Positions 23,991-31,879 of a stretch of DNA of 42,438 bases are shown piece by piece. Every line of letters begins with the position of its first letter. Within the stretch, counting starts at the first letter, position 1. The DNA is from Patescibacteria group bacterium. Its GTDB lineage: Bacteria > Patescibacteriota > Microgenomatia > UBA8517. The stretch is taken from contig JAHJHG010000001.1 in the NCBI GenBank assembly GCA_018823885.1, forward strand, positions 1 to 42,438, in the 5' to 3' direction. Both the position numbers and the translations under genes were made by a program. Below the pieces are notes generated by a model. The model had not been told where the DNA came from. It saw only the letters and a program-made list of their open reading frames with translations, and did no database searches.

Positions 23991-25564
23991 TCAAAGAATC
24001 CGATAACACGACAAAGACAGATAAGAAAGCCATCCTTTATTTGAGAGTGTCAACCGAAGAGCAGGTCGACAATTTCTCCTTAAACACCCAAGAAGACATT
24101 TGCCGAAAAGAGGCGCAGCGCAAAGGCTACGAGGTGGTCGAGGTCTTCAAAGAAGAAGGCAAATCTGCCAAAAACATCTACGGAAGACCTGTGTTGACCG
24201 AAATGCTCGTTTATTGCAAGAAAAACAAAAAGGCAATTGACGCTCTCTTTATCTACCGGCTTGACCGCTTATCGAGACAGACCTCCGACTATTTAGCCAT
24301 CAGAAAAAGTCTTATTGAGTCTGAGATAAAACTAATTTCGGCCACCGAACCGACTGGAATTTCGCCGACTGAGACACTACTTGAAACAATACTTGCGAGT
24401 TTTGCCCAACACGACAACGACGTTAGAAGCGAGAGAACCAAAAACGGCTTAAGAGCCAGGTTTTTGTCCGGTCTTGTTAATGGTAAGCCACCTCTGGGCT
24501 ATATCATGCAAGAAAGCCGAGCGGTAAAAGATCCAAAAACATGGGATAAAGTCAAAGAAGCCTGGGATCTCATGGCGACGGGCACCAAAAGCCTGCGTGA
24601 AATGGCAAAAATTATGAATAAGTGGGGCTTGAGTGCTAACCACGGAAAAAGTACATATAAGTTAAGGCCCCAGACCGTCCAGAGAATATTCAGACTCAAG
24701 TTCTATGCGGGCGTATTAACCTCAAACGTCTATCCGGAAGAGGTGAAAGGTCAACACGGCCCGATGATCACAGAAGAGCAGTTTTACAAAGTCCAAAGTA
24801 TTCTTGACGGCCGATGCGTGAATAAAGTGCCGACGCCGAAAAGAGCCCACCTAAATACGGACTTTCCCTTAAGAAGGGTAGTCAAATGCGCTAAATGCGG
24901 CGTCGGTCTAACCGCCGGCTGGAGCAAGGGTAGAAGCGCCCGATACCCTTATTATCGCTGTGCCGGCAAGTGCAACAACACCTCAATCAGGGCAGGGGAG
25001 TTAGATAGCGCCATGATCCAACTGCTTAAAGAAATAACTCCCAAAGAAGAATGTCTCGAGCTTTTTACGCAATACATTAAAGAGGAATACAACGAGCGCC
25101 TGGCCGATCTAAGAAAGAGGAAAAACGAAGCCGATGAAGAAATCCAAAAGCTTTTGGATATAAGAAAAGTGTTGGTTGAAAAGAACTTGCTCGGTATTTA
25201 TACGGACGAGATCTTCAAAGAGCAAAACGCGACGCTGGAAAAAAAGATCGCCAAAGCCCAGGTGGCCAAGGCCGATTCGACGCTGGAAAAATACGACATT
25301 AACAAACTTACGGCTTTTATGAAAGGATTGCTTACGGATTTGGGGAAAACGTATAAAAGATCAACCACTACCCAGGCTAAAGCGCTAATTGGTTCAATCT
25401 TCCCTTCCGGGCTGGCCTGGAACTACAATGGTGGATTGAACCACCAGATTAACCCGATATATCGGACAATTCTTGACTTTGACGGGAGGGGAGTCCCTTC
25501 TGGGGTGACTGACGGGGATCGAACCCGCAACCTTCTGTTCCACAAACAGACGCTCTGCCATTGA
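23987..25564 (+). CDS. Large serine recombinase (resolvase/recombinase/zinc-ribbon domains)
   Basis: AILYLRVSTEEQVDNFSLNTQ...; LDRLSRQTSDYLAIR; zinc ribbon VVKCAKCGVGLTAGWSKGRSARYPYYRCAGKC; coiled-coil C-term. Confidence 0.92.
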   Translation: MIKESDNTTKTDKKAILYLRVSTEEQVDNFSLNTQEDICRKEAQRKGYEVVEVFKEEGKSAKNIYGRPVLTEMLVYCKKNKKAIDALFIYRLDRLSRQTSDYLAIRKSLIESEIKLISATEPTGISPTETLLETILASFAQHDNDVRSERTKNGLRARFLSGLVNGKPPLGYIMQESRAVKDPKTWDKVKEAWDLMATGTKSLREMAKIMNKWGLSANHGKSTYKLRPQTVQRIFRLKFYAGVLTSNVYPEEVKGQHGPMITEEQFYKVQSILDGRCVNKVPTPKRAHLNTDFPLRRVVKCAKCGVGLTAGWSKGRSARYPYYRCAGKCNNTSIRAGELDSAMIQLLKEITPKEECLELFTQYIKEEYNERLADLRKRKNEADEEIQKLLDIRKVLVEKNLLGIYTDEIFKEQNATLEKKIAKAQVAKADSTLEKYDINKLTAFMKGLLTDLGKTYKRSTTTQAKALIGSIFPSGLAWNYNGGLNHQINPIYRTILDFDGRGVPSGVTDGDRTRNLLFHKQTLCH

Positions 25565-25576
25565 GCTACAGCCACC
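25501..25576 (-). tRNA. tRNA-His (GTG), CCA encoded
   Basis: GGTGGCTGTAGCTCAATGGCAGAGCGTCTGTTTGTGGAACAGAAGGTTGCGGGTTCGATCCCCGTCAGTCACCCCA cloverleaf on minus strand. Confidence 0.93.
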
Positions 25577-25590
25577 ATATATTACTTTGA

Positions 25591-25663
25591 GCGGGAGAAG
25601 GGTCTCGAACCCTCGACCTTCAGTTTGGAAAACTGATGCTCTAACCAACTGAGCTACTCCCGC
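25591..25663 (-). tRNA. tRNA-Gly (TCC)
   Basis: Cloverleaf; anticodon loop TTTCCAA. Confidence 0.92.
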
Positions 25664-25668
25664 TTGTG

Positions 25669-25741
25669 TCGGAGTGCCCGGACTCGAACCGGGGGCCTCC
25701 TCGTCCCAAACGAGGCGCGCTACCAACTGCGCCACACTCCG
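25669..25741 (-). tRNA. tRNA-Pro (TGG)
   Basis: CGGAGTG...; anticodon loop TTTGGGA. Confidence 0.92.
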
Positions 25742-25746
25742 CCGTG

Positions 25747-25831
25747 TGCCGAGAGAGGGACTCGAACCCTCACGGCCCTATTGGGCCACAGGATTTTAAG
25801 TCCTGCGCGTATACCATTCCGCCACCTCGGC
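25747..25831 (-). tRNA. tRNA-Leu (TAA)
   Basis: Long variable arm; anticodon loop CTTAAAA. Confidence 0.92.
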
Positions 25832-27337: not shown

Positions 27338-27409
27338 TGCGCCTGGGAGGAATCGAACCTCCACATCTCGTTCCGAAGACGAGTGCCCTATCCGTTAGAC
27401 TACAGGCGC
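27338..27409 (-). tRNA. tRNA-Arg (TCG)
   Basis: Cloverleaf; anticodon loop CTTCGGA. Confidence 0.9.
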
Positions 27410-28627: not shown

Positions 28628-28712
28628 GCCAGAGTGCTGGAATTGGTAGACAGGCACGGTTCAGAACCGTGTGCTCTTTAAGGGCGTGGGAGTTCAAATC
28701 TCCCCTCTGGCA
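28628..28712 (+). tRNA. tRNA-Leu (CAG)
   Basis: Cloverleaf with long variable arm; loop TTCAGAA. Confidence 0.9.
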
Positions 28713-28725
28713 CTCGACGATATAT

Positions 28726-28809
28726 GCCGGGATGCTGAAATTGGTATACAGGCTACGTTGAGGACGTAGTGTCCGTAAGGATGTGGGAGTTCGAGTCTCC
28801 CTCCCGGCA
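28726..28809 (+). tRNA. tRNA-Leu (GAG)
   Basis: Cloverleaf with long variable arm; loop TTGAGGA. Confidence 0.9.
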
Positions 28810-28820
28810 CACAATCACCA

Positions 28821-28894
28821 GGTCGCTTAGCTCAGTTGGTTAGAGCGTTCGGTTTACATCCGAAAGGCCAGGGGTTCGAGTCCCTTAGCGACCA
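28821..28894 (+). tRNA. tRNA-Val (TAC)
   Basis: Cloverleaf; loop TTTACAT. Confidence 0.9.
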
Positions 28895-28925
28895 CATCTT
28901 GCAGAAATGTATATAATAGTGTTGA

Positions 28926-28998
28926 GCCGAGGTAGCCAAGTTGGTCACGGCGGGCGTCTGAAGAACGTCAGATACAAGTTCGATTCTTGTCCTCGGCA
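28926..28998 (+). tRNA. tRNA-Phe (GAA), atypical body
   Basis: GCCGAGG/CCTCGGC acceptor, loop CTGAAGA; unusual D-arm GCC-AAGTTGGTCAC-GGC. Confidence 0.75.
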
Positions 28999-29004
28999 CA
29001 ATAC

Positions 29005-29077
29005 GCGGGAGTAGCTCAGTTGGTAGAGCGTTTCGTTGCCAACGAAAAGGTCGCGGGTTCGAATCCCGTCTCCCGCT
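29005..29077 (+). tRNA. tRNA-Gly (GCC)
   Basis: Cloverleaf; loop TTGCCAA. Confidence 0.92.
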
Positions 29078-29110
29078 CAAAATAGATTGACATAACGGTC
29101 AGGTAAAAGA

Positions 29111-29266
29111 ATGGAAAATACAGAAAAACCAAGTTCAGAACCTTTAAATGAGCGTGAAAAGAAAGAACTGGAGACAATTTCCGAAGTGATTGAAAAAGCT
29201 GTATATGAAAATGATAGCAAAATTGCTTCATATTTGAGAAATCAACTTATTGATGCTGCAATATAG
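29111..29266 (+). CDS. Small ORF (51 aa), MENTEKPSSEPLNEREKKELETISEVIEKAVYENDSKIASYLRNQLIDAAI
   Basis: ORF below the track length cut-off, between tRNAs; charged helical composition. Confidence 0.35.
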   Translation: MENTEKPSSEPLNEREKKELETISEVIEKAVYENDSKIASYLRNQLIDAAI

Positions 29267-29361
29267 GCGTTATCTCTAAAGAAGTTGCTATTAAAGGCTC
29301 TCTTCCAACACCAACAATGGAAGTAAAGAGAGATAGGATAAAAATAGATAAATAAATATTA

Positions 29362-29435
29362 GCCCTCGTAGCTCATTTGGATAGAGCGACTCCCTTCTAA
29401 GGAGTAGGTAGGAGGTTCGAATCCTCCCGGGGGCA
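29362..29435 (+). tRNA. tRNA-Arg (TCT)
   Basis: Cloverleaf; loop CTTCTAA. Confidence 0.9.
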
Positions 29436-29450
29436 CCCTTTTTACTCAAT

Positions 29451-29522
29451 GGCCCCGTAGCTCAGCGGTAGAGCAGTCGCCTCTTAAGCGATTGGCCGAA
29501 GGTTCGAATCCTTCCGGGGTCA
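29451..29522 (+). tRNA. tRNA-Lys (CTT)
   Basis: Cloverleaf; loop CTCTTAA. Confidence 0.9.
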
Positions 29523-29577
29523 CTAAGAATCTTGACTTCTTCTTCTGATTTATGTCATTCTGAGCATAGGTAGAATA

Positions 29578-30234
29578 ATGTATCTACCCACTATGGAACC
29601 GTCAATAATCCAAGAAGAATCTTCATTTTCATTCTGGAAAGGATTGATTTTTGCAAGCCTTTTCTTCTTTGTTACTCCAATCGCCTTGGCTACAAGTTTA
29701 TTTTCGCTTGCATCTTTATCTAAGGCAGAAAAACCTGAAAATCTCATACTGGAAACGGATTTTAATTTAATTTCTGCTCCTAAGTCAGGTGCCAAAGTCT
29801 TTGCTTCACTTCCTTCTTCTTTTCCCGCTGTGTCTGGTGTTGTCTCTGCATCAGATGCCAGACCGGAGCTAATTAGACAATACCTAGCAAGCTATAATTC
29901 TCCGCTAGAACCCTACGCCGAATATCTTGTTGAGACCGCTGACCTTTACGATCTTGATTACAGGTTATTAACTGGTATCGCTCAGCAAGAATCAAATTTA
30001 TGTAAAAAAATTCCACCTTTAAGTTATAACTGTTGGGGATGGGGAATTCACAGTACAGGATCGCTTGGATTTGACTCTTTCGAAGAGGGTATTGCCGTGG
30101 TTTCTCAGGGAATAAAAGAAAATTATATAGATAAAGGCTATACGACCATTGAAGATATTATGTCCAAATATACACCTCTCTCAAAAGGTTCGTGGGCCTT
30201 CGGGGTCAACAAGTTTATAGGGGACATTTACTAG
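29578..30234 (+). CDS. Membrane-anchored lysozyme/transglycosylase-like cell wall hydrolase (paralogue 1)
   Basis: N-terminal TM; YDLDYRLLTGIAQQESNLCKKIPPLSYNCWGWGIHS...; paralogous to 31228-31755. Confidence 0.7.
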   Translation: MYLPTMEPSIIQEESSFSFWKGLIFASLFFFVTPIALATSLFSLASLSKAEKPENLILETDFNLISAPKSGAKVFASLPSSFPAVSGVVSASDARPELIRQYLASYNSPLEPYAEYLVETADLYDLDYRLLTGIAQQESNLCKKIPPLSYNCWGWGIHSTGSLGFDSFEEGIAVVSQGIKENYIDKGYTTIEDIMSKYTPLSKGSWAFGVNKFIGDIY

Positions 30235-30283: not shown

Positions 30284-31042
30284 ATGCCAGCCGCATACGA
30301 CACATACGATTATCCTTCCTACTGGGAAGGACGTGACTATGAACATGGTTCCGAAGTAATTGCGATAAAGGGTTTTCTCGAAAAAATACCAAAAATCAGC
30401 AAGATTTTGGAAATTGGATCTGGGTATGGAAGATTAGCTCCTTCATATCTTTTTCGCGCCAAAAAAACAATTCTTACGGATCCTTCTTCTGTATTACTTA
30501 AATTAGCCAAGGAAAACCTACAGGGCGAGAACATTAAATTTATACATACGGGAATTGAAAATTTACCTAATAAAATAAGAGGTAAATCTGTGGATGTGGC
30601 CATTCTAGTTCGCGTCCTTCATCATTTAGATGATACCGACAAGGCTTTTGCAATCATTCATAAACTCCTGAAAGATAAAGGATATTTAATCTTAGAATTT
30701 GCCAATAAATGCCATTTTAAAGCTACATTCTTAGAGTTTCTCCATGGTAATTTCACTTTTAGCCTTGAAATATTTCCTAAAGATCACAGAACAAAAAAGT
30801 CAAAAAGAAAAGGCACTATCCCATTTTTGAATTTTCATCCAGACATAATCAAAAGAAAACTGGAAGAAGCCGGATTTAACATAATCGAAACAAGGTCCGT
30901 ATCGAACTTTAGAACCTCTTTCCTTAAAAATATTTTGCCAACGGGCCTCCTTCTTTCCATTGAGAAATTTCTCCAACCACTCCTTGCCAAGATTAATTTC
31001 GGGCCCTCCATTTTTATTTTAGTACAAAAGCAAACAGACTAA
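30284..31042 (+). CDS. SAM-dependent methyltransferase
   Basis: ILEIGSGYGRLAPSYL motif I; VRVLHHLDDTDKAF. Confidence 0.82.
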   Translation: MPAAYDTYDYPSYWEGRDYEHGSEVIAIKGFLEKIPKISKILEIGSGYGRLAPSYLFRAKKTILTDPSSVLLKLAKENLQGENIKFIHTGIENLPNKIRGKSVDVAILVRVLHHLDDTDKAFAIIHKLLKDKGYLILEFANKCHFKATFLEFLHGNFTFSLEIFPKDHRTKKSKRKGTIPFLNFHPDIIKRKLEEAGFNIIETRSVSNFRTSFLKNILPTGLLLSIEKFLQPLLAKINFGPSIFILVQKQTD

Positions 31043-31103
31043 ATCCCCCATAATTGCTGTTAATCGAACAGTTTTCTCCCCAAACGATATCGTTCTCTAA
31101 AAC

Positions 31104-31227
31104 TTGACATAACCTGTAGTAATTTGTTATAGTATTTCTACGTTTCGAGGCAAAGCTCTTCCATGAGTCTGAGCGTTGAAATTTTTTGGGGGTACCAGAC
31201 GGTACCCCCTTTTCGTGTAGAAATACC
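31104..31227 (+). promoter_or_regulatory. Promoter TTGACA-18-TATAGT followed by a two-hairpin 5' leader (candidate riboswitch/attenuator)
   Basis: CAAaGCTC-TTCCATGAGTCT-GAGCgTTG stem; GGGGGTACC-AGAC-GGTACCCCC-TTTT hairpin just upstream of ATG 31228. Confidence 0.55.
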
Positions 31228-31755
31228 ATGAACAAAATACAAAAAATCATATTAATCGTATTTGTGTTTGCCTTTATATCTACAGCTGAAGTTTCGGCTG
31301 ATGTTGTTGTAGCTGGAAGCTCAGCACAGCTTGTAGGAAGAACAATGGTTGAGTCTGATTTTAGAGAAGAAATTCTTCGTAATTACTTAGAGGGGCACAA
31401 TTCGCCCTTGAGTGATTATTCTGACGTTTTTATTAACTTAGCCGACAAGTATAGGCTTGATTGGAGATTAGTGCCTGCAATTACAGGTGTTGAATCAACA
31501 TTCGGTAAACGAATCCCTGTAGATTCTTACAATGCCTATGGCTGGGCTAATGGAGCCTATTCTTTTGAATCGTGGGATGAATCTATTGAAACTGTTTCAA
31601 AAGCTCTTAGGAATAACTATATTGACAGGGGAGCCGTATCTATTAATGATATTGCAAGAATTTATGCACCCCCAAGTGTGACTTGGGCTAGAAATGTTAA
31701 ATTCTTTATGAATAAAATTGACCCATTGCCGGTTTCCTTCTCGCTAGGAGGCTAA
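31228..31755 (+). CDS. Secreted lysozyme/transglycosylase-like cell wall hydrolase (paralogue 2)
   Basis: Signal peptide MNKIQKIILIVFVFAFISTAEVSADV; WRLVPAITGVESTFGKRIPVDSYNAYGWANGAYSFESWDESI. Confidence 0.72.
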   Translation: MNKIQKIILIVFVFAFISTAEVSADVVVAGSSAQLVGRTMVESDFREEILRNYLEGHNSPLSDYSDVFINLADKYRLDWRLVPAITGVESTFGKRIPVDSYNAYGWANGAYSFESWDESIETVSKALRNNYIDRGAVSINDIARIYAPPSVTWARNVKFFMNKIDPLPVSFSLGG

Positions 31756-31793
31756 GGTTGTGGGTGATATAATAGTAATCCACAACTATATAG

Positions 31794-31879
31794 GCCGGGG
31801 TGGCGGAACTGGCAGACGCGCAGGATTTAGGATCCTGTGAGGGTTACACCTCGTGGAGGTTCGAGTCCTCTCCCCGGCA
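31794..31879 (+). tRNA. tRNA-Leu (TAG)
   Basis: Cloverleaf with long variable arm; loop TTTAGGA. Confidence 0.92.

Follow-up and report, generated by a model that had tools for sequence, protein, structure and literature searches.

The closest described systems to the locus analysed here are autonomous bacterial small RNA genes, attenuation leaders and one class of riboswitch, which it resembles in different ways. Autonomous small RNA genes have the same anatomy (a promoter, a structured RNA and an intrinsic terminator), are present in single copy and show a conserved, covarying structure. In attenuation leaders with a promoter-proximal intrinsic terminator, this terminator likewise lies a few bases before the downstream start codon, and the c-di-AMP riboswitch ydaO-yuaA (RF00379) is also located upstream of a wall hydrolase gene. 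In CPR, regulation is almost unexplored and, according to a recent review, the mechanisms governing differentiation remain completely unknown (PMC11665869). Our search of the open literature returned nothing joining Woesebacteria and small RNA, or Microgenomates and SRP RNA, and a looser search of the same scope returned no regulatory RNA reported for this lineage. The RNA described here is a previously uncatalogued RNA of Woesebacteria and their kin, usually found just before a cell-wall hydrolase gene, and it is probably not a riboswitch but an independent RNA gene.

The window, that is, the whole stretch of 42,438 nucleotides that was analysed, comes from a genome of 756 kb (98% complete); judged by hydB, its nearest named relatives are Candidatus Woesebacteria. 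The features of the locus are the following:

29578-30234, forward strand: hydA, a paralogue of hydB, syntenic
30284-31042, forward strand: class I SAM methyltransferase gene, upstream of the RNA and syntenic in most of the window's family (f1)
31104-31133, forward strand: promoter TTGACA-18-TATAGT with an extended TG, 11/12 consensus matches
31113-31120, forward strand: box CCTGTAGT (consensus CCTATAGT), candidate operator in the promoter spacer, beginning 15 nt before the -10
31140, forward strand: putative transcription start, an invariant A located 6-8 nt past the -10 in 61/61 homologues
31142-31182, forward strand: hairpin 1, the conserved core (covariance models R1 and R2)
31188-31213, forward strand: hairpin 2 (31188-31209) followed by UUUU, a 9-bp intrinsic terminator
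31228-31755, forward strand: hydB, coding for a secreted glucosaminidase-like peptidoglycan hydrolase of 175 aa (weak profile matches; orthologues found)
31794-31879, forward strand: tRNA-Leu(UAG), located 3′ of the RNA with or without hydB

The assignment of hydB derives from matches to Pfam Glucosaminidase (E=0.002) and to an NCBIfam peptidoglycan hydrolase (E=4e-4), both under the curated cut-offs, and its ATG at 31228 lies 14 nt past the U tract of the terminator. The tRNA-Leu(UAG) gene has its own extended -10, TGATATAAT, at 31765-31773, and the loci inspected likewise show a -10 belonging to the tRNA gene (TATAAT). This gene thus does not require the RNA as a leader, and the possibility was discarded. 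Additionally, tRNA genes are clustered near the locus, as 12 of the window's 13 lie at 25504-25831, 27338-27409 and 28628-29522. Upstream of hydA, in the window (29510-29578) and in relatives, there is what appears to be a conserved promoter whose -10 is atypical (TTGACW, approximately 17-18 nt, then roughly TRTGKCATYCTGA). A pairing of UCAGAAU, in the 3′ arm of the RNA, with AUUCUGA before hydA was also considered and rejected, as the latter stretch looks like the -10 region of hydA (TGGCATTCTGA) and would be outside its transcript.

The promoter of the RNA, with TTGACA at 31104-31109, an 18-nt spacer and TATAGT at 31128-31133, is the best among 12 candidates in 3 kb. An initial annotation of this DNA had placed the promoter, the 9-bp hairpin with its TTTT and the ATG correctly. 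As sequence matches, promoters with at least 10 of the 12 consensus bases are located directly before the hairpins in all 61 homologues. The spacer box is similarly conserved: at least 6 of its 8 bases are matched in 59 of the 61 homologues, compared with 7% of shuffled spacers, and its 15-nt distance to the -10 is kept whether the spacer has 17 or 18 nt. In the copies of families f19 and f31, a second box is found approximately 23 nt further upstream. In the 19 genomes searched, the full promoter pattern, box included, was matched only at this RNA; when written with a 3-nt gap it matched the window alone, since the gap is 2 nt in most relatives. These features suggest a dedicated regulator, for which the box would be a candidate operator. 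Two other elements noted initially did not hold. The perfect palindrome AACGATATCGTT (31083-31094) is explained by chance, as the window contains 15 perfect 12-nt palindromes and this one is present in no homologous locus. The pairing of TTTCTACG with CGTGTAGAAA, by inspection, is not conserved in homologues and, because the -10 is at 31128-31133 and the putative +1 is the invariant A31140, most of TTTCTACG would lie upstream of the transcript.

The predicted RNA (31140-31213, 74 nt) folds at -34.5 kcal/mol (z = -6.1), and no shuffled sequence was equally stable. In hairpin 1, the outer stem is formed by GUUUCGA (31142-31148) and UUGAAAU (31176-31182), followed by a G.G mismatch (31149/31175), two further pairs (G31150-C31174 and C31151-G31173) and an inner stem that varies. 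The initial annotation had recognised this hairpin, which is real and conserved, but had formed it by pairing CAAAGCUC with GAGCGUUG rather than by the stem given here. The invariant elements are the +1 A, one U-A and one A-U stem pair and the G-C pair beside the G.G mismatch (G.U in some families); an internal AGGC/GCGU motif is invariant in the copies of the first alignment (n=27). In the window's family, hairpin 1 is followed by a separate terminator, hairpin 2, which is conserved in position and free in sequence, while in f8, f19, f25, f31, Gottesmanbacteria and Shapirobacteria the U tract comes straight after hairpin 1. A terminator is detectable, or a direct U tract present, in 58 of the 61 aligned copies (again as sequence matches). 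In these other families the core is a bare hairpin that starts at the putative +1; in f8, f31 and Shapirobacteria this near-simple hairpin is the sole structure. By inspection, no conserved alternative pairing was apparent in the element. Some additional variations were observed. Behind hairpin 2, three loci (L042, L030 and L035, of genomes G006, G008 and G007) carry an extra terminator hairpin of the type GACTCTTG..CAAGAGTC with a U tract, and the addition of terminators before hydB seems to be unconstrained. In L070, L071, L072, L079, L092 and L091, AGGA is found in the 3′ arm of the hairpin, approximately 9-10 nt before the hydB AUG, and the hairpin would there hide a possible ribosome-binding sequence as well. 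A small reading frame right behind the U tract in f19 and f31 was dismissed, since on reading it was inconsistent between relatives.

The structure of hairpin 1 is under selection, as its covariation exceeds both chance and the slid controls. Across 61 copies, 94.3% of the cells are paired (at most 47% in slid controls), changes in both partners occur at 10 of the 14 pairs, and the covariation reaches 0.546, compared with 0.257 for shuffled alignments and at most 0.188 with the partner slid; these values come from an alignment fitted to the structure, which favours pairing. We argue that this fitting is not the cause of the covariation, given the slid controls and the fact that the hairpin is visible by eye in every family. 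The initial annotation had proposed a structured leader and had named covariation in homologues as its test; the proposal of structure is thus borne out.

Regarding the distribution of the RNA, DNA similarity revealed pieces of the promoter, of hairpin 1 or of the terminator in relatives, and the regions upstream of hydB orthologues have the same architecture. The first covariance model, built from 27 copies, recovered more members across the class and was followed by the second, R2. With R2, one clear copy was found in each of 43 of the 50 genomes of f1, one genome having an additional weak second match (E=0.13). Copies are also present in families f8, f10, f19, f25 and f31 of the same CPR class and in one Gottesmanbacteria and one Shapirobacteria locus, and all 14 matches in a phylum-wide sample of 380 genomes fall within this class. 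Five f1 genomes without the RNA (G002, G010, G013, G038 and G046) have no hydA match either, and may lack the entire locus or have it unassembled, most of the genomes being assembled from metagenomes.

An indication of the nature of this RNA comes from loci where the hydrolase gene is absent. Among the 45 readable f1 loci, 22 lack hydB between the RNA and tRNA-Leu(UAG) (G018 and G035 being scored by hand as hydB-bearing), and the RNA gene is kept in all of them, as an R2-detected RNA with its promoter in 20 and as a diverged hairpin RNA in 2. The latter (G042, locus L126, and G043, locus L127) keep a related promoter and terminator around a core hairpin of very different sequence that has lost the AGGC/GCGU motif. 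Taken alone, the hydB-less copies are as good as all copies, with 92% of the cells paired and a covariation of 0.58; a clade made up of seven hydB-less genomes has 92 of its 98 cells paired, and 6 of the 14 pairs show double changes. In f19, two genomes of one genus also differ, L076 being without hydB near the RNA and L074 with it. By parsimony, the loss of hydB requires 6 changes, of which strongly supported branches force only 1 on a tree made from one protein of approximately 250 aa, and the number of losses behind the hydB-less loci may be small. Outside these loci, the association between the RNA and hydB is very tight, also in different genomic contexts (f8 and Shapirobacteria), as would be expected of a cis element. 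An RNA maintained without hydB is expected of a small RNA gene, but not of a cis riboswitch. As in autonomous genes, the RNA has its own promoter and terminator and is retained independently of any one downstream gene.

In the explanation that we favour, to which we would give a slightly better than even chance, the element is an autonomous, single-copy small RNA gene of the CPR class of Woesebacteria, whose terminator would throttle read-through into hydB where this gene is present. A sigma-70-type RNA polymerase would start at A31140, from the promoter marked by the CCTATAGT box, to which a regulator would probably be bound. The transcript would fold into hairpin 1 at once and would be released at the intrinsic terminator, which in the window lies after hairpin 2 (at approximately 31213) and in other families would be hairpin 1 itself. 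The predicted product has approximately 74 nt in the window and 43-50 nt elsewhere, with an overall range of approximately 43-80 nt; it would be the conserved entity, probably acting as a small RNA in trans or through a protein. Where hydB is present, this gene would most likely be expressed by partial read-through, at a low level and from the promoter of the RNA. As only 14 nt (in the window) or 0 nt (in f8 and Shapirobacteria) separate the U tract from the start codon, hydB would most simply be transcribed through the terminator, and the tight linkage to hydB observed elsewhere would be explained if this gene lives on read-through from the promoter of the RNA. The more specific proposal, that this is a class-specific regulatory CPR small RNA, formed by a self-terminating hairpin at +1 with its own CCTATAGT operator, combining an action in trans with read-through metering of a wall hydrolase, is offered tentatively, and we would not expect it to hold in full.

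The position of the element before hydB may also be read as cis-acting attenuation, in which the promoter-proximal terminator would be relieved by a protein or by changed conditions, switching hydB on, with additional sequestration of AGGA in the 3′ arm where the AUG abuts the terminator. Such a model agrees with the fact that, hydB-less loci aside, almost every copy is immediately followed by hydB, with the AUG straight after the U tract, GGAUUUUUUUUAUG, in L070, L071, L072 and L079 (f8) and in L091 (Shapirobacteria), or 1 nt later in L092 (f8), and with the short gap in the window, which leaves hydB hardly any room for a promoter of its own. Nevertheless, we consider it unlikely, as 20 hydB-less loci, besides the 2 diverged ones, retain the RNA along with its covariation, a core hairpin at the putative +1 leaves no upstream RNA for a competing antiterminator, and the f1 terminator varies freely in sequence, with no evident conserved complement shared with hairpin 1. 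The initial annotation had instead suggested a riboswitch of the hydrolase, for instance of the c-di-AMP type, a ligand-binding leader that would control hydB; its leader position, its terminator and the AGGC/GCGU motif invariant in 27 copies would fit such a role. However, a scan of the leader against the 4227 Rfam families at E values up to 10 produced chance-level matches only and no riboswitch (the best was a Burkholderia sRNA, scoring 21.7 bits where the gathering score is 46), and no Rfam riboswitch, ydaO-yuaA included, was found in the loci of six relatives. Moreover, f8, f31 and Shapirobacteria have little more than a plain hairpin, the core of the other families, which begins at the putative +1, has no RNA ahead of it for an exchange between aptamer and antiterminator, and any cis-riboswitch reading is weakened because 22 of the 45 family loci lack hydB yet keep the RNA gene, with compensatory changes inside a hydB-less clade. 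We therefore regard a riboswitch as very improbable.

A mere terminator between the methyltransferase gene and its downstream neighbours would account for an element right after that gene in the window, but hardly for a conserved promoter directly before the hairpin in every homologue, as the initial annotation's refuting alternative of an upstream gene's terminator would also have to do, nor for the copies in which the methyltransferase gene is absent or non-adjacent (f8; G016, G017, G027 and G035); as the main function it is refuted, and we give this reading almost no credence. A divergent housekeeping RNA, such as SRP RNA, is suggested by the single copy and conservation of the element, together with the failure to detect RF00169 in 24 genomes and RF01854 in 16. 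Yet the RNA matches neither model, and the SRP54 M domain, which binds SRP RNA, was undetected in the window genome, so that this candidate was rejected as extremely unlikely. The arrangement of symmetric loop and tetraloop typical of SRP domain IV is also absent from this RNA. As a separate observation, SRP RNA is undetected in the window genome (G000) and relatives, and the M domain (PF02978) missing from the window genome is present in 14 of 14 control genomes; a loss or an extreme divergence of the SRP in this lineage is possible. Across the whole window, no Rfam family except tRNA reached its threshold, with neither a riboswitch nor 6S among the matches. 6S RNA, a long hairpin of approximately 180 nt with a central promoter-like bubble, was discarded for an RNA of this small size with no large bubble.

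A conserved RNA with a rare promoter beside wall hydrolases in many genera is a concrete handle on CPR regulation, as it offers a defined RNA, a candidate operator with which to seek a binding protein, and a natural comparison between loci that have the hydrolase and loci that lack it. Compared with the known systems, the element is far too small for the ydaO-yuaA riboswitch, whose Rfam model it does not match. It differs from attenuation leaders in that no competing antiterminator is seen and the element outlives the gene. Its anatomy is that of an autonomous small RNA gene, but, unlike those described, it has no entry in Rfam, its core hairpin lies at the putative +1 and it usually abuts one protein gene.
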